64,000 bases of DNA from Streptomyces sp. V1I1 (GTDB lineage: Bacteria > Actinomycetota > Actinomycetes > Streptomycetales > Streptomycetaceae): NCBI RefSeq assembly GCF_030817355.1, contig NZ_JAUSZH010000001.1, positions 2,784,501 to 2,848,500 of the forward strand. The letters run 5' to 3'. Positions within the stretch are counted from its first letter, which is position 1. The number at the start of each line of letters is the position of its first letter. Positions 37,994 through 45,829 of the stretch are shown piece by piece. The translations under genes and the position numbers were made by a program. Below the pieces are notes generated by a model. The model was not told where the DNA came from. It did no database searches and saw nothing but the letters and a program-made list of their open reading frames with translations.

Positions 37994-39172
37994 TCAGTAG
38001 ATCGGCTTGTCCGGCTCGATCTGGTTGACCCAGCCGATCACGCCGCCGCCCACGTGCACCGCGTCCGCGAAGCCCGCGGACTTGAGCACCGCGAGGACTT
38101 CAGCACTGCGGACACCCGTCTTGCAATGCAGGACGATCTTCTTGTCCTGCGGCAGCGCCTCCAGGGCGGTGCCCATCAGGAACTCGTTCTTCGGGATCAG
38201 CCTGGCGCCGGGGATCGAGACGATCTCGTACTCGTTGATCTCACGGACATCGATGATGTCGATGTTCTCGCCGTCGTCGATCCACTCCTTGAGCTGCTTG
38301 GGAGTGATCGTCGAACCGGCCGCCGCCTCCTGGGCCTCCTCGGACACGACGCCGCAGAAGGCCTCGTAGTCGATGAGCTCGGTGACGGTGGGGTTCTCGC
38401 CGCAGACCGCGCAGTCCGGGTCCTTGCGGACCTTGACCTGGCGGTACTGCATCTCCAGGGCGTCGTAGATCATCAGTCGGCCGACCAGCGGCTCGCCGAT
38501 GCCCGCGAGCAGCTTGATGGCCTCGTTGACCTGGATGGAGCCGATGGACGCGCAGAGCACGCCCAGCACGCCACCCTCGGCGCAGCTCGGGACCATGCCG
38601 GGCGGCGGGGGCTCGGGGTAGAGGCAGCGGTAGCAGGGACCGTGCTCCGACCAGAACACGCTCGCCTGGCCGTCGAAGCGGTAGATGGAGCCCCAGACGT
38701 ACGGCTTGTTCAGCAGCACGCACGCGTCATTGACCAGGTAGCGGGTCGCGAAGTTGTCCGTGCCGTCGACGATCAGGTCGTACTGGCTGAAGATGTCCAT
38801 CACGTTCTCGGCCTCGAGCCGCTCTTCGTGCAGGACCACGTTCACGTACGGGTTGATGCCGAGCACCGAGTCCTTCGCGGACTGGGCCTTGGAGCGGCCG
38901 ATGTCGGCCTGGCTGTGGATGATCTGGCGCTGCAGGTTCGACTCGTCGACCTCGTCGAACTCCACAATGCCGAGCGTGCCGACACCGGCCGCGGCGAGGT
39001 ACATCAGGGCCGGCGAACCCAGGCCGCCGGCGCCCACACACAGCACACGGGCGTTCTTCAGCCGCTTCTGTCCGTCCATCCCGACATCCGGGATGATCAG
39101 GTGGCGGGAGTACCTGCGGACCTCGTCGACGGTGAGCTCAGCAGCTGGCTCGACCAGGGGTGGCAGCGACAC
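37994..39172 (-). CDS. moeZ: Adenylyltransferase/sulfurtransferase MoeZ
   Basis: This 392-aa protein combines an N-terminal E1-like ThiF/MoeB domain (CVGAGGLGSPALMYLAAAG, DGTDNFATRYLVNDAC) with a C-terminal rhodanese domain. The catalytic cysteine is in LHCKTGVRSAE. Such enzymes adenylate and thiocarboxylate small sulfur carriers (MoaD, ThiS, CysO) for molybdopterin, thiamin or cysteine synthesis. CxxC pairs (CYRC, CAVC) form the structural zinc site. It starts with GTG (MSLPPLVEPAAEL). It is the first backbone gene after the inserted peptidase region, and its other neighbour is the glycan operon. Confidence 0.94.
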   Translation of the reverse strand: MSLPPLVEPAAELTVDEVRRYSRHLIIPDVGMDGQKRLKNARVLCVGAGGLGSPALMYLAAAGVGTLGIVEFDEVDESNLQRQIIHSQADIGRSKAQSAKDSVLGINPYVNVVLHEERLEAENVMDIFSQYDLIVDGTDNFATRYLVNDACVLLNKPYVWGSIYRFDGQASVFWSEHGPCYRCLYPEPPPPGMVPSCAEGGVLGVLCASIGSIQVNEAIKLLAGIGEPLVGRLMIYDALEMQYRQVKVRKDPDCAVCGENPTVTELIDYEAFCGVVSEEAQEAAAGSTITPKQLKEWIDDGENIDIIDVREINEYEIVSIPGARLIPKNEFLMGTALEALPQDKKIVLHCKTGVRSAEVLAVLKSAGFADAVHVGGGVIGWVNQIEPDKPIY

Positions 39173-39235: not shown

Positions 39236-39997
39236 TCATTCCGAGACACCCGGTCCGATCTGCGAGACGATTTCGTCCCAGTAACCGGGCAGTGCCTCGA
39301 ATGCAGTGCTATGTCCCCTGTGATCGGAACGTGTGGACCTGTCGGTGAAGAAGATCGTCCCCGCGCCCTGCCAGCGCGCGATGCGGGTGGCCTCCTCCAG
39401 ATGCGTGCGCGGCACCCCGTGGACGAAGTGCGCGAACCGCTCCGGCGGATAGTCCGCCGTCCACTCCGCCACCTGCGACCAGCGGTAATCGGTCCACGGC
39501 CCGGAGAAGGTGACCAGCTGGTCGGCGACCTCCGCATATCCGGGGTAGGGGTGCGAGCCGTGGTTGAGGACAAGATGCCCGCCGTCCAGGACCGCCTCCA
39601 GCGTCGCCGTGATACGCCGCACTCCGTGCAGATCGGCCCGGTCCGCAGGACAGCGGTCCAGCAGGAAGCCGTCCACGCGGTACCACTCGAGGTAGTGGTG
39701 CGCATCGGAGACGACATCGCCGAAGGAGCGCGAGCCGTGCGCCATGTCGATGTGCCCGAGGACCTGTACGCCCGCGTTGCGCACCTTGCCCGTGGCTTCC
39801 AGGCAGTGCGGGTCGGGGCGGTCGCCGGGGCCGTCGTCGACATTGAGGACGACCCAGTGCAGCGGCGTGCCGGGACGGGTCAGCTCGGCCCATTCGACGG
39901 GGGCGAGCAATGGGTGGGCGTAGCCGGGGATACCGAAGCCGAGCCCCTCCGCGCCGGTCGCGGTGAGCTGGGTGCCGGTCGTGGTCAGATGCGGCAT
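39236..39997 (-). CDS. Spherulin-4-like glycosidase-fold protein
   Basis: This 253-aa member of the spherulation-specific family 4 is related to GH135/Sph3 enzymes that cleave galactosaminogalactan and to the hydrolase half of PelA. Visible blocks are GFGIPGYAHPLLAPVEW, WVVLNVDDGPGDRPD, QVLGHIDMAHGSRS and YRVDGFLLDRCPAD. In the last, the usual acidic pair after the GFFLD strand is DR, so catalysis may be altered. No signal peptide is visible, although Sph3 and PelA work outside the cytoplasm. The ATG lies inside the end of the epimerase gene (13-bp overlap), so translation is coupled. Confidence 0.85.
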   Translation of the reverse strand: MPHLTTTGTQLTATGAEGLGFGIPGYAHPLLAPVEWAELTRPGTPLHWVVLNVDDGPGDRPDPHCLEATGKVRNAGVQVLGHIDMAHGSRSFGDVVSDAHHYLEWYRVDGFLLDRCPADRADLHGVRRITATLEAVLDGGHLVLNHGSHPYPGYAEVADQLVTFSGPWTDYRWSQVAEWTADYPPERFAHFVHGVPRTHLEEATRIARWQGAGTIFFTDRSTRSDHRGHSTAFEALPGYWDEIVSQIGPGVSE

Positions 39998-40944
39998 GCT
40001 GCCTCCATCCAGATGTCGGCCAGGGATTCTTCGAGGTTGATACGGGGACGCCAGCCGAGCCGGTCGCGGGCCGTGCGGACATCCGCCTGCTGCCAGCTGC
40101 CGCAGCCGTCGGGGTACGGCGCCGGGGTCGCGGACAGCTGCTCCAGTACGGATTCGGAGCGCGGGGCGCCGATGGACGGGCGGCCGGAGGGCGCGTCGAG
40201 CTCGTGCAGCGCGCCCGCGTAGCCCGCGACCCGGGCCAGCACGGCGGCCGCGTCCCGCAGACGGACGGCACGTCCCGTGCCGATGTTGACGACGCCCTGC
40301 GCCGCGGACAGGGAGGCGGCGTGCACGGCGCGCGCCACGTCCCGTACGTCGACGAAGTCGCGCTGCACCCCGAGGCCGCTGAGCTTCAATTCGCCGTCGC
40401 CGGCCTGCATGGCGCGGCGCATCGCCTCGGCGAGGCGGCCGAGCGGGGAGCCGGCCGGGGTGCCGGGGCCGACGGGTGAGAAGACCCGCAGCACGACGGC
40501 GTCCAGGCCGGAGCCGAGCACCAGCTCGGTGGCGGCGAGCTTGCTGACGCCGTACGGCCCGCCGGGGCGCGGAATCGCGTCCTCCGCGGTCGACGACCCC
40601 TGCTGGGACGGGCCGTACTCGGAGGCGCAGCCGAGCTGGACGAGCCGGGCGCCGCAGCCGCTGCGGCGCAGGGCCTCGCAGACGGTGGCGACGGCGACGG
40701 TGTTGTGCCGGGTCAGATCGCGGGCGCCGCCGCGGGTGGCGCCTGCGCAGTTGATGACGACACCGGGGTGGACGGCGCCCAGGAAGCGGGTGAGCGCGCC
40801 CGGGCTGCCGCCGGCGAGGTCGAAGCGCACGTCGGCGTCGTCGCCGCGACCGAGGGCGGTGAGGTGCACGGCCGGGTCGGCGAGCAGCCGGTCTGCGACG
40901 AAGCGGCCGAGGAATCCATTGGCACCGAGCAGCAGCACCCTCAT
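39985..40944 (-). CDS. NAD-dependent sugar epimerase/dehydratase-like protein
   Basis: This 319-aa extended SDR has a Rossmann motif LLLGANGFLGRFVADRL, a catalytic Tyr-Lys pair in GGPYGVSKLAATEL and the sugar-binding region ADIRT-like VRTARDRLGWRPRI. That layout fits a UDP-hexose epimerase or dehydratase, such as the 4-epimerase that supplies GalNAc or GalN for Pel/galactosaminogalactan. The substrate is inferred. ATG at 40944 is 62 bp after the membrane-protein stop. The end overlaps the spherulin-4-like gene. It belongs to the minus-strand operon. Confidence 0.85.
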   Translation of the reverse strand: MRVLLLGANGFLGRFVADRLLADPAVHLTALGRGDDADVRFDLAGGSPGALTRFLGAVHPGVVINCAGATRGGARDLTRHNTVAVATVCEALRRSGCGARLVQLGCASEYGPSQQGSSTAEDAIPRPGGPYGVSKLAATELVLGSGLDAVVLRVFSPVGPGTPAGSPLGRLAEAMRRAMQAGDGELKLSGLGVQRDFVDVRDVARAVHAASLSAAQGVVNIGTGRAVRLRDAAAVLARVAGYAGALHELDAPSGRPSIGAPRSESVLEQLSATPAPYPDGCGSWQQADVRTARDRLGWRPRINLEESLADIWMEAACRI

Positions 40945-41006
40945 CGCGCGGCCCCTCGGTGCCGACGGGCCGGAGCTGGGGGTTGGGGGGTCATGTCGCT
41001 TTCTCC

Positions 41007-42215
41007 TTAAGGGTGTTGCTGTCGATGCGGGTGCTGTTGCTGCCGGGGTTCGCCCGCGGTGTCGGCTCCAGGGGCGGTCTGGACGGTGTGCGCCGAGGCC
41101 CGGGACAGGGCCGCGGTGGCGTGGGCCAGCAGACCGAGGGCGGCGGCCCCGCAGGCGATCGCCGGTACGGATCCGGCGCCCCAGGCGCCGACGGCCGCCT
41201 CGACGGGGCTCGCCAGGAAACCGCAGCCGGGCAGGCGGCCGGCCAGCAGCAGAGCGGGGGCCGCGACTTCGGCGGCGCAGGCGGCGGCCAGCCCGGCGGC
41301 GGCGGATTCGGGAAAGCCGTGGACGATGAGCAGCCGGGCCAGGAAGAGCAGGGTGCCGAGGGTGACGGCGGGGGCGAAGGCATCGTGCGGGAGGACGAGG
41401 CCGGCCAGCACGAGGAGCGCGGTGAGGACGCAGACATAGAACGCGACGACTGAGAGCAGCAGGGGGCGCGCGCCGGATGCGAACTCCTCCAGACCACGGC
41501 TGCCGTCCAGCTTGCGCCGGGCCTGCACGGAGAAGACGCGGGCGCACCAGGCCGCGGGGGCGACGGCAAGAGCGAGGGCGACGAGCGGGGCTGCGGTCAG
41601 GGGCAGAGGTCCTTCTGGTCCGCCGTCGGCGATCTGCTCCGGCAGGCCTTCGCCGTACGCCGCGTACGCCAGCAGCCATACCGTCCACAGGCGTACGGCG
41701 GGGACGGTGCGCCCCGTCGCGCGCAGCGGCCCGCGCCGCAGGCAGAGGGCGAGCGCGACTGCGGTTCCGGCCGCGCCCGCGGCCCCGGCCGCGAGTTGGG
41801 CGGCGCCGTCGGTCGCCTCCAGGGCGACGACGGCCAGGACGCAGACGGCGCCCGGCAACAGCGCGAGCAGTGCACGACCGGCGCGCCCCGCGTGCCCGGC
41901 GCGCGATTCGGCGACGCGCGCGCCCGTACGTGCGGGGCGGGGATCCGACTCCGCTCCGCGCGGCACGCGCGCGTACAGCTCCTCGGCGAGCGAGAAGACG
42001 TCCCGGTGACGGAAGCGCGAGGCGGTCCGGTCGGTAACGCCATGGGCTTCGAGGCCCGCGGCGATCTCCAGCGGGTCGACGGCCCGCTCGCACAGTTCCC
42101 GATGGCGGTGCATGAGCGCCTTGACGGGGTCGGCGGGGCCACGGCGCGGGGCGGGGGGCTTGCCCGGCTTTGCGGGCGCGTCCTCCCCGGCCCCGGTGAT
42201 ACGGGACGTACTCAT
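41007..42215 (-). CDS. Polytopic membrane protein of the Pel-like operon
   Basis: This 402-aa protein has an N-terminal soluble stretch (about residues 25-90, RHRELCERAVDPLEIAAGLE) and roughly ten hydrophobic segments. These include LALLPGAVCVLAVVALEA and PLLLSVVAFYVCVLTALLVL. The C-terminus is His/Gln-rich (QQQHPHRQQHP). It has no clear PelG or PelE motif, but it occupies the position expected of a membrane export or assembly component. It starts at ATG overlapping the TGA of the glycosyltransferase (ATGA), so expression is coupled. Family unknown to me. Confidence 0.78.
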   Translation of the reverse strand: MSTSRITGAGEDAPAKPGKPPAPRRGPADPVKALMHRHRELCERAVDPLEIAAGLEAHGVTDRTASRFRHRDVFSLAEELYARVPRGAESDPRPARTGARVAESRAGHAGRAGRALLALLPGAVCVLAVVALEATDGAAQLAAGAAGAAGTAVALALCLRRGPLRATGRTVPAVRLWTVWLLAYAAYGEGLPEQIADGGPEGPLPLTAAPLVALALAVAPAAWCARVFSVQARRKLDGSRGLEEFASGARPLLLSVVAFYVCVLTALLVLAGLVLPHDAFAPAVTLGTLLFLARLLIVHGFPESAAAGLAAACAAEVAAPALLLAGRLPGCGFLASPVEAAVGAWGAGSVPAIACGAAALGLLAHATAALSRASAHTVQTAPGADTAGEPRQQQHPHRQQHP

Positions 42216-43891
42216 GCGCGTGCCTCCTGTGCCGTGACGGCCGCCGCACCGACGAGCCCCCGCCCGTCCGCCCAGCGGGGTGTGCGGCCCTTCGACGGGG
42301 TGCCGCCCGTCCAGTGGCCCGGCACATGCGCCTCGGCGGGATGGGCGAAGGGCAACGGTTCGCCGTCCTCGTTCACGGCCTCGCGCTGCACCGGAGAGTG
42401 CGAGATCAGCTCCAGGTAAATGCCGCGAAATGCCGTCAGGTTCTGTTCGATCGTGAAGAGTTCGAGCGCACGGGCGCGCGCCGCGGCGCCCAGCCGTTCA
42501 CGGCGCTCCGGGTCGCGCAGCAGCGCGAGGCAGGCGTCCGCGAGCGCCCGCGGATTGCGCGGGGGCACGACGAGGCCCGTACCACCGATGACTTCGACGA
42601 CCGCGCCGACATCCGTCGACACCGTCGCGCGGCCGCAGAACATCGCCTCGACCAGGCTGATCGGGAAGCCCTCGACGACGCTGGAGAGGACGACCACGCC
42701 CCCGGAGGCGTACGCGTCGGCGAGCTCGGGGGCCTCGGGTCCACCGATCTCCTCGAAGGAGACGGGGTTGGTGCCCACCGCGTGCGCGTCGGCCGCCTCG
42801 TCCGGGAAGAGCTGGGCGGCCAGCGCCTTGCAGTGGGCGAGATACGTCGCCGCCTGAGGCCCTTGTACCGGCGCGCCGAACAGCCGCAGCCGCGCCCGCG
42901 GCTCCTTCTTGAGCACCTCGGCGAAAGCGTGGAGGAGCGCGATGAGGTCCTTGGCGGGCTCGATCCTGCCGATCCAGACGAGGGTGTGCGGGTCGCCGCT
43001 GTCCGCGCCCTCCCCCACCGGCTCCCCCACCGCCGCGAAACGATCCGCCTCCATGCCGGGGTAGACGGTCCGCAGCTTGGCGCGGTCGGCGCCGCATTTC
43101 TCCTGCCAGCGCCGGGCGTGCGTGTTGCCGGGCGTGATGACGGATGCCTGCGCGTACACCTCTGCGGCGAGCCGTCCCTGGAAGGCGGCGAGCAGGGCCC
43201 GTACAGGCGCGGTCAGCTCGCCGTCGCTCGCGGCCAGATAGTGCGCGCGCAGCTGTACGCCGTACTCCGTGACCAGCAGTGGGACCCCGAAGAAGCGTTT
43301 GGCCACAAGTCCGGACAGAGCGGCGGATCCGCCGGAAGCGGCATGGCAGAGGTCGACCGCGCCGAGGCCGTCCTCGCCGTACCAGTCGAGGGAGAGCGGG
43401 CGCAGCGCGCGCTCCAGCTGGTCGGCGAAGGCGAGGTAGTCGGGGACGGTGGCGGCGTGCACGGTGCGGCGTGCGCCGTGGGCGCGGCAGGCGGATTCGA
43501 GGACGCGTACGGCGAGTTCGGAGCGGAGGGCCGCGTAGAGGCCGCCGCTGTCGCGGGCGAGTTCGGCGAGCCCGTACAGGCCGTCGGCGAAGCCATCGCC
43601 CTCGCCGCAGACGGCGGTGGCAAGTTCCTTGAAGTGGCCGACGAAGCGCCGTCGTTCACGCCGCCCGTAGGTGCGCCCGTCATCCTCGGGCGCCCACAGC
43701 GGGGCGGTGCGCACGCGCTGCACCTGCGGCGGGAGCTGGATCCAGCCGTGGTCTTCCTGCCGTGCGCTGCGGCTCAGCGCGTAGATGTCGAACTCGTGCT
43801 GCGCGAGCCCGTGCACAAGCCGGTCGCACCACAGCCTTTGCTCACCCGTCGCATACGGATAACCACCTTCCGTAAGCAGTCCGATCCGCAC
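42212..43891 (-). CDS. PelF-like family 4 glycosyltransferase (DUF3492)
   Basis: This 559-aa GT4 glycosyltransferase has the DUF3492 N-terminus characteristic of PelF (MRIGLLTEGGYPYATGEQ, LWCDRLVHGL). The GT-B C-terminal domain holds LVWIGRIEPAKDLIALLHAF and the E-x7-E motif EGFPISLVE. PelF polymerises the cytoplasmic N-acetylhexosamine chain of Pel polysaccharide from UDP-sugars. The GTG at 43891 is chosen because homology starts there. The reading frame extends upstream to 43999 without a plausible ribosome site. First gene of the four-gene operon. It follows the ABC permease relic and the DUF3152 gene. Confidence 0.88.
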   Translation of the reverse strand: MRIGLLTEGGYPYATGEQRLWCDRLVHGLAQHEFDIYALSRSARQEDHGWIQLPPQVQRVRTAPLWAPEDDGRTYGRRERRRFVGHFKELATAVCGEGDGFADGLYGLAELARDSGGLYAALRSELAVRVLESACRAHGARRTVHAATVPDYLAFADQLERALRPLSLDWYGEDGLGAVDLCHAASGGSAALSGLVAKRFFGVPLLVTEYGVQLRAHYLAASDGELTAPVRALLAAFQGRLAAEVYAQASVITPGNTHARRWQEKCGADRAKLRTVYPGMEADRFAAVGEPVGEGADSGDPHTLVWIGRIEPAKDLIALLHAFAEVLKKEPRARLRLFGAPVQGPQAATYLAHCKALAAQLFPDEAADAHAVGTNPVSFEEIGGPEAPELADAYASGGVVVLSSVVEGFPISLVEAMFCGRATVSTDVGAVVEVIGGTGLVVPPRNPRALADACLALLRDPERRERLGAAARARALELFTIEQNLTAFRGIYLELISHSPVQREAVNEDGEPLPFAHPAEAHVPGHWTGGTPSKGRTPRWADGRGLVGAAAVTAQEARA

Positions 43892-44071
43892 CAGTGCACC
43901 CCCGATCTCCCTTGTGGGCGGCCACCGTTGGTCCGGCGACTCGCAGCGGGAAGACGGTAAGCCGGTACGCCGGTGGCGCGACGGACGGTTGTCCATCACG
44001 CCACCGGAAGGGGTGAATGCACGTAACTTTCCTACCCAGGTAGCGTTCTGTCGCGCTACGCGGGTATCTCG
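43892..44071. promoter_or_regulatory. Putative promoter region of the Pel-like operon
   Basis: No gene is seen. This segment lies between the permease relic and the PelF-like start and is AT-richer near 44020-44045 (GTAACTTTCCTACC). It should contain the operon promoter, but I cannot identify -35/-10 elements with confidence. Confidence 0.35.
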
Positions 44072-44458: not shown

Positions 44459-45829
44459 TCAACTGCCGGGGTGCACCCAGGGGTTGGCCTTGCACTGGAT
44501 CCCGTCGACGTCCAGGGACTTGGTCTGCTGCTGCATCACCGGCGCGAGCGCTCCCGGCGTGCGGCAGTTCACATGCCCGTGCCCGAGCCGGTGCCCGACC
44601 TCGTGGTTGATGAGCATCTGGCGGTAGGGGAACATCGCCTTGTCGCCGTACGTCTCCGAGCCCTGCGCCCAGCGGTACGCGTTGATCATCACGCGGTCGG
44701 TCGACGCGGAGTCGCAGCTGACATTGTCGACGGTCGTATCCAGACCGGATTTGGCGCACCAGTCCGCCGTGGTCCCCGGACTCGCCAGCGTAATGACGAA
44801 TTCCGGCTCGCCGGACGAGATCCGCTCGAAGGTCATTGCCCCGCCGTGCGCCCAGCTCCGCTCGTCGTTCAGAGTTTCCTGGACCGCTTTGGCGAAGAGC
44901 TCGCCGTCCAGTCCGAGGCCCTTCTCGACATCCACCCGATAGCGGATCTTGCGGCCCTTGCCCGGCGCCTTCTGGAAGCCGGGCACCACCTCGAATTTTC
45001 CGCTCGCCGTCAGTTTCGGATCGATCGAGAACTGAGTGGCCATCAGCTTCGCGTACGTGACCGGGGCAGCCGGAGCGGCGGGCGGCGCGCCCTTCGGCGG
45101 CGCCTGCCGGCCCTTGGAGCGGGACGCCGGGCTCTGCGCGGCCCCCCGGTCCTCGCCCGCGGACTGCGCGCTCGATGTGCCGGGGCCGTCGGTGGCGACC
45201 TGGCCGGCCACGACGACCGCGAGAACGGTGGTCACCGCGGCGGCGGCGATCCCGGTGAAGGTGCGCCCCTTGCCGGCCTTGGCGGGCGGCTCCTCGGGCG
45301 CTTCCTCGTCTGCATCGGGGACATCTCGCTCGGAGACGAGGTCGGGGACGTCGTCCCAGGAGGTGACGGAGGCGTACGGATCGGCCCCCCGCGGACCGGG
45401 CACCCTGCCCTGCTGTGACTGCGCCTGCGACGGCGCCTGTGACTGCGGCTGGTCGAAGGCCTCGACGAACTCCCGTCGCGGGCCCGGTATTCGCGCCCCC
45501 GTGGCGATCCGCGGCGGCGCGGCGGGTGTCTGCATCCGCTGCCTGCCCTGCCCGCCCTGCCTGTTGTCGTACTGCTGCGGGACGCCCCAGCCGCCGCCCG
45601 CCTCATGCTGCTCGGGGTGCCCGCCCCTGGCCTGCGGCGTGCCGTACCCGGAGGGGCCGTATCCGGAGGGGGTGTGCTGCTCGGAGCCCCTGAGCTCGGC
45701 CCCCCGCCTGCGCCGCCCGCTGCCGGGGTCCGGAACCACACCCTCCGGCCCACCGGCGGTCGATATGCCGGACCTGTCGTCCGATTCGGAGCCCCTGGGT
45801 GCGGGGCCTTTGCGGCTGTGTCGTCCCAC
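44459..45829 (-). CDS. DUF3152 membrane-anchored zinc-metalloprotease-like protein
   Basis: This 456-aa protein has a long disordered Gly/Pro/Gln-rich N-terminus, a single transmembrane segment (about residues 190-212, FTGIAAAAVTTVLAVVVAG) and an extracytoplasmic C-terminal domain. The domain has a metzincin-like zinc motif HEVGHRLGHGH near residue 409 and conserved RVMINAYRWAQGSETYGD and CRTPGALAPVMQQQT. Family DUF3152 is widespread in Actinobacteria. Proteolysis is predicted from the motif but substrates are unknown. It sits 9 bp downstream of the alpha/beta hydrolase, probably as one unit. Confidence 0.9.
   Translation of the reverse strand: MGRHSRKGPAPRGSESDDRSGISTAGGPEGVVPDPGSGRRRRGAELRGSEQHTPSGYGPSGYGTPQARGGHPEQHEAGGGWGVPQQYDNRQGGQGRQRMQTPAAPPRIATGARIPGPRREFVEAFDQPQSQAPSQAQSQQGRVPGPRGADPYASVTSWDDVPDLVSERDVPDADEEAPEEPPAKAGKGRTFTGIAAAAVTTVLAVVVAGQVATDGPGTSSAQSAGEDRGAAQSPASRSKGRQAPPKGAPPAAPAAPVTYAKLMATQFSIDPKLTASGKFEVVPGFQKAPGKGRKIRYRVDVEKGLGLDGELFAKAVQETLNDERSWAHGGAMTFERISSGEPEFVITLASPGTTADWCAKSGLDTTVDNVSCDSASTDRVMINAYRWAQGSETYGDKAMFPYRQMLINHEVGHRLGHGHVNCRTPGALAPVMQQQTKSLDVDGIQCKANPWVHPGS

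Follow-up and report, generated by a model that had tools for sequence, protein, structure and literature searches.

Operons of the Agd3 type combine, in bacteria, a cytosolic glycosyltransferase (GT), a multi-spanning protein, a short-chain dehydrogenase/reductase (SDR) and, in some Actinobacteria, a spherulin-4 protein (PMC7229062, available part), all features shared by the locus described here. In the Gram-positive pelDEADAFG operons a PelF-family GT with a DUF3492 domain directly precedes a polytopic membrane protein (PMC7112168, available part), a pairing that is also shared. The locus is a four-gene operon on the minus strand of a 64,000-nucleotide stretch of Streptomyces sp. V1I1 DNA (contig NZ_JAUSZH010000001.1, positions 2,784,501 to 2,848,500; the window hereafter). 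It is of the PelF type and related to Pel operons but falls outside them, and is a reduced relative of Agd3-type operons. As read from the sequence, its four genes are related to those of a second cluster, are kept in a conserved order and under purifying selection, encode a spherulin-4 protein that has lost its acid/base residue, and are preceded by a conserved promoter-like signature and a hairpin. We give about an even chance to the reading that this is a developmentally induced operon of the Streptomycetaceae, in which parts of an Agd3-type (galactosaminogalactan-like) PelF machine have been repurposed to assemble an envelope glycan; a developmental glycan of the envelope is the probable product.

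The operon encodes a PelF-type GT4 glycosyltransferase (42212..43891, GTG start, 559 aa), a polytopic membrane protein called MEM (41007..42215, 402 aa, no Pfam match), an extended SDR, probably acting on a sugar-nucleotide substrate (39985..40944, 319 aa), and a spherulin-4/GH135-like protein called Sph (39236..39997, 253 aa). The initial annotation had placed such an operon between moeZ and a DUF3152 gene; genes, flanks and junctions were all confirmed, the latter to the base (ATGA overlap at 42215/42212, 62-bp gap at 41006..40945, 13-bp overlap at 39997/39985). One further DUF3492 and one further spherulin-4 match reside in the same genome, in a single cluster of eight genes where about 5 kb separate them (L085:5376-15051, G000:C1 about 913.9-923.6 kb); the genes are ordered Agd3-like, PelF-type GT, MEM, SDR, nucleotidyltransferase, second SDR, spherulin-4, GH114. 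GT, MEM, SDR and Sph all have relatives in this second cluster, in line with the proposed relation to Pel/galactosaminogalactan machinery, and by sequence comparison the window operon is a reduced, diverged relative of it. A Pel or galactosaminogalactan polymer as product is not supported as first written, deacetylase and GH114 being absent from the operon and located in the second cluster. The window operon resembles Agd3-type operons in having a PelF-family GT beside a non-PelG multi-spanning protein. In contrast to Agd3-type operons, the four window genes include no Agd3/CE18-like deacetylase, GH114 or nucleotidyltransferase, MEM is shorter, the catalytic Glu of Sph is lost, and the site is a fixed chromosomal one adjoining moeZ. 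This moeZ-linked form is not described in the available part of PMC7229062. Unlike in pelDEADAFG operons (PMC7112168, available part), PelG, PelD, PelE and PelA are not among the four genes, no genome-wide search having been made for PelD, PelE and PelA.

The Agd3-like protein of the second cluster has, taken alone, no Pfam and no PDB match; its identity rests on a five-sequence profile whose sole match is 6nwz (E 4.4e-17), the solved structure of Agd3. The cluster also contains a GDP-mannose-dehydratase-like SDR which, together with the nucleotidyltransferase, hints at an unusual nucleotide sugar. The identical eight-gene order is found on a Streptomyces californicus plasmid, and related clusters on Deinococcus, Kocuria and Thermus plasmids. 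On the mobilizable plasmid of Kocuria rosea (L120), the Agd3-like, PelF, membrane protein, spherulin-4 and GH114 genes lie between copies of the same transposase, and Agd3-type clusters may therefore move between bacteria.

Assignment of the GT to the DUF3492/PelF family is supported by DUF3492 (102 bits) and by the GT4 domain. The narrower assignment to the PelF equivalog did not hold, the score with NF038011 being 95.1 bits vs. a cut-off of 100 (the second-cluster GT scores 175.6 bits), and the protein branches with PelG-less GTs. In a tree of 37 GTs the moeZ-linked proteins (100/100, stem 1.63) are sister to Streptomyces Agd3-type GTs (96/93), and both groups fall inside a PelG-less set (94/87), other members of which accompany Agd3-like (CE18) deacetylases or GH114; the six sampled PelG-linked PelFs are separate. 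The deep root is unsure, given the very long branch of the outgroup and weak support at some deep forks.

The N-terminal part of MEM (about residues 28-86) forms a conserved helical domain, the motif of which is recognized by alignment in the hypothetical protein following pelF in Agd3-type plasmid clusters. By a simple hydropathy count, hydrophobic segments are 7-8 in 69/70 loci and 9 in the remaining one, 7-9 in 120/120 database proteins, 9-12 in six Agd3-type MEMs and 11-12 in three PelGs. Members of the MOP superfamily have 12 or more transmembrane helices, a number not reached by the 7-8 segments of MEM. The predicted model is similar to MATE/MurJ/Wzx proteins of this superfamily in fold comparison, and MEM may be a flippase-like partner. 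A PelG homologue was rejected, as profiles reveal no similarity between MEM and PelG and only the fold comparison points to MOP. The claim that no PelG-type component is present stands by sequence (PF16933 has no match in the genome), perhaps not by function, the predicted fold of MEM being MOP-like. The gene following pelF is annotated pelG in six Proteobacteria records. Six genomes of the window's genus (L086-L090, L092) encode open reading frames (ORFs) larger than 1,240 aa, part of which weakly match the C-terminal quarter of PelG (22-33 bits).

The reduced number of segments in MEM fits a different scheme, in which no polymer is made, the output of GT and MEM is an oligosaccharide, short or lipid-linked, or the decoration of a protein or wall polymer, and the shortened MEM is a GT anchor, not a flippase. 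Along the same line, the 18 aligned moeZ-type GTs all differ at several of the residues common to the Agd3-type and PelG-linked sets (N to P at 278, G to F at 362), and the operon is devoid of deacetylase and GH114. Yet E-x7-E (E407 and E415 in the window) and R309 are kept in 18/18 of the same GTs, K314 in 17/18, and the branch from which the GT is derived consists of polymer-type systems; we regard this scheme as possible but rather doubtful.

Spherulin-4 membership of Sph is supported by PF12138 (85.4 bits) and by the sequence match with 5c5g (E 5e-4); the structure model was too poor for use, Foldseek ranking 5c5g second (E 0.017). With Aspergillus Sph3 (GH135; 5c5g) the protein shares family and nucleophile-position Asp, D114 in the alignment, but S165 occupies the place of the general acid/base Glu222. 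The nucleophile of Sph3 is presumably Asp166. The Asp/Glu pair is described as verified by experiment, and printed as Asp196/Glu222, in the available part of PMC12054363; the spacing of 56 residues in the alignment gives Asp166, and for this reason 196 is taken as a misprint. R115 replaces the Glu adjoining the nucleophile, a change that is not diagnostic, Q or R being found at this place also in clusters without moeZ.

The Sph sequence was searched against one genome per species (84,980 species), and the best 80 of 559 related stretches were kept (79 records named Streptomyces, one Microtetraspora). The acid/base Glu is found in 0/80 of these moeZ-linked loci (S in 57, T and R in 8 each, A in 4, C in 3) and in 0/120 database proteins, a set overlapping the 80 loci; the nucleophile-position Asp is retained in 77/80. 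Outside Streptomyces, the Glu is found in 1/14 moeZ-linked loci (L137), L141 having Asp there, and in 12/12 clusters without moeZ in the fetched stretch, several stretches being only about 4 kb long. The variety of letters at position 165 suggests a relaxed need for catalysis rather than a new fixed residue, and ratios of nonsynonymous to synonymous substitutions (dN/dS) of 0.14-0.23 against four relatives indicate that the rest of the protein is under selection. The GH135-like protein of the initial annotation is hence better not regarded as a working GH135 hydrolase, an active enzyme being rejected for the Streptomyces moeZ-linked set upon loss of the acid/base Glu. Localisation was judged by hydropathy and not by a signal-peptide program: none of the 80 orthologues has a hydrophobic N-terminus (hydropathy of 15-residue stretches peaks at 0.51-1.21 within the first 60 positions), and the second-cluster Sph, read by eye, also starts without one. 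Fungal Sph3 is instead membrane-anchored. Sph is predicted to be a cytosolic pseudo-hydrolase.

These changes bear on the initial proposal of a minimal yet working Pel/galactosaminogalactan operon, in which MEM is the exporter and processing enzymes are borrowed from the second cluster. The families are the same, and both an Agd3-like protein and GH114 are encoded by the second cluster; but the acid/base residue of Sph is lost, the GT scores under the PelF cut-off, and several genomes of the genus with the moeZ-type GT (G016, G096, G143, G208) gave one match each for GT and Sph, no second cluster being seen at thresholds of 1e-30 and 1e-10, so that the proposal looks unlikely.

A sugar-nucleotide SDR, as annotated, is supported (Epimerase, 124 bits), and its gene is the most constrained of the operon (dN/dS 0.03-0.09). 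The epimerase label is tentative, because the nearest solved chains are GDP-6-deoxy-4-hexulose reductases (GDP-6-deoxy-D-lyxo-4-hexulose reductase).

The order GT-MEM-SDR-Sph-moeZ is found in 71/80 loci, and SDR-Sph-moeZ in all 80; being repeated to this extent, the arrangement is not due to chance. Contig ends account for seven of the nine exceptions, and two (L040, no MEM and weak GT; L068, no GT and no MEM) appear to be cases of true loss or strong divergence. All four genes are under purifying selection by dN/dS, MEM being fast-varying among them. Sph matches were found in 16/148 class-wide genomes (12 of the 13 belonging to the window's genus, plus four others). Of 101 family genomes, 89 gave GT-type matches (E up to 1e-30) and 79 gave Sph matches (E up to 1e-10), counts in which both operon types are mixed. 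Among 23 further stretches fetched (22 from family genomes, and L152 from the class sample), the moeZ-linked operon is present in other genera of Streptomycetaceae, so the form presented as minimal is not rare. GT-MEM-SDR-moeZ without Sph is found in L148, L150 and L151, SDR-Sph-moeZ without GT and MEM in L141, and a full Agd3-type cluster in L142, the SDR and Sph of which are closer to those of the window than to those of the second cluster. As SDR-Sph-moeZ is retained where GT and MEM were not found (L141:5278-8392, L068:6697-9983), SDR and Sph may have a separate role of their own. No paper devoted to the operon was found in a literature search in which supplements and most subscription journals were beyond reach.

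The GT gene is preceded by GTTACG, followed by TTCACC, in 86 of the 98 loci searched. AAC stands exactly 17 bases before GTTACG in 85/86 loci, other spacings from 10 to 25 occurring in at most 3, a count conditional on GTTACG being present. Of the 12 loci missing GTTACG, two (L036 and L062) carry AAC-N17-GTTACT instead and seven sit at the end of a contig; the form in L148 is diverged, and no such signature is seen in L141 and L150. AAC-N17-GTTACG (44022..44047, minus strand; AAC at 44047..44045, GTTACG at 44027..44022) occurs once in the window, and resembles a site for an extracytoplasmic function (ECF) sigma factor. Below it, a 16-bp hairpin with an AACC loop (43971..44006, minus strand) lies upstream of the GT start; signature and hairpin, which make up the leader (43933-44047, minus strand), are conserved in much of the family.

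In the hairpin alignment 95.3% of the cells pair, 24 cells are doubly changed vs. 10.0 ± 2.5 in shuffles (0/500 reach 24), and the covariation score is 0.181 vs. 0.146 (0/500). Covariation is real but moderate, since six pairs changed on both sides are reached by 45/500 shuffles, and sliding the partners by +3 still yields 21 doubly changed cells in seven pairs, with 58% of cells paired and a score of 0.111. One-sided changes of the G.U type exceed those of the A.C type (38 vs. 9, by hand count, relatedness ignored), which favours an RNA element over a protein-bound palindrome. The hairpin is part of the minimum free energy (MFE) structure of 59/60 leaders. Searched with a covariance model, the genome yields a single good hit (121 bits) and three more of 23 bits at most, 150 of the 7,796 first-look candidates having been scored. 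The 52 alignment rows were chosen by the exact core GGACAACCGTCC, the invariance of which is there built in; of 64 upstream regions not chosen by that core, 62 contain GACAACCG, and N interrupts the remaining two. Just below the hairpin a TANNNT hexamer is invariant (T82, A83 and T87 in 52/52), and thus a second promoter may exist, its -35 region overlapping the hairpin. No Rfam family was assigned to the leader, a MIR8008 match (23.7 bits vs. a gathering score of 66) being regarded as spurious. Pairing between the 5' CACCCC and the GT start region, found in the MFE of 14/60 leaders, is unsupported.

The counterpart in S. coelicolor is, by position, SCO5174-5177, because moeB is SCO5178 (PMC4340878) and SCO5174 is named transferase (PMC3610822) or putative glycosyltransferase (PMC6585502) in the available parts of these papers. 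According to the available part of the published data, SCO5174, SCO5175 and SCO5177 belong to a set of 53 conserved, functionally uncharacterised genes that differ more than 8-fold between the vegetative and the reproductive mycelium; they are up in the latter (log2 values 2.2-2.6 at 24 h, 3.0-3.8 at 48-72 h), and SCO5174 insertions lower actinorhodin. A decaying relic carried along with moeZ, to which the fast variation of MEM, the many letters at Sph residue 165 and the single genes missing in some lineages could point, is already disfavoured and highly improbable in view of purifying selection on the four genes, intact order in 71/80 loci, conserved signature and hairpin, and strong developmental induction in S. 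coelicolor.

In a developmentally induced operon assembling an envelope glycan, an ECF sigma factor would direct transcription in aerial growth and sporulation, and the SDR would provide the nucleotide sugar. The cytosolic GT4, docked on the conserved N-terminal domain of MEM, would transfer or polymerise the sugar at the membrane, MEM would move the product outward as a shortened MOP-like protein, and the cytosolic pseudo-spherulin would bind the nascent chain of the N-acetylgalactosamine type without cutting it, as a length or quality factor. Bolder, and tentative at best, is the view of a core sporulation-linked pathway of Streptomycetaceae, in which a rebuilt galactosaminogalactan-type synthase, a cytosolic sugar-binding ex-hydrolase, a flippase minus about four helices, and a structured leader with a single dedicated ECF promoter would make an undescribed glycan of the aerial hypha or spore envelope. 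The MatAB and CslA/GlxA glycans of Streptomyces use other synthases. Like the proposed product, they are envelope glycans tied to aggregation or development (for MatAB, PMC5972031); CslA/GlxA is named in the available part of PMC6585502. The operon provides a set of genes with which a developmental surface glycan of Streptomyces can be tested, linked to the fungal galactosaminogalactan and Pel families, and a natural case of a hydrolase partner without catalysis yet still under selection; as signature and hairpin are found once in the genome, regulation can be directly tested in S. coelicolor or S. venezuelae.

The flanking genes moeZ (ThiF plus rhodanese; 37994..39172, minus strand), which lies outside the proposed function, and DUF3152 (44459..45829, minus strand) were monitored in 59 sampled genomes, 30 of which have a DUF3152 match, distances being read by hand. 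The two genes are less than 200 bp apart in seven genomes, 1.9-2.9 kb in four, 5.3-11.6 kb in the four Streptomyces, own genome included, and far apart or on separate contigs in the remaining 15. The larger distance in Streptomyces supports the insertion in a conserved block initially proposed, and as moeZ and DUF3152 are directly adjacent in 7/30 genomes elsewhere in the class, the operon was probably added later to an older block. The genome of the window has another DUF3152 match (G000:C1:3811040-3811552), which lies away from moeZ.

The 62-bp gap between MEM and SDR holds a translated-looking mini-ORF of 17 codons plus stop (40941..40994, minus strand), with AAGGAG in front; its stop codon and the SDR start share an ATGA. 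Judged by script criteria, 75/79 loci have this arrangement, window included; 60 rows were inspected, including all four misses, and in L054, counted among the 75, the mini-ORF has two codons only.

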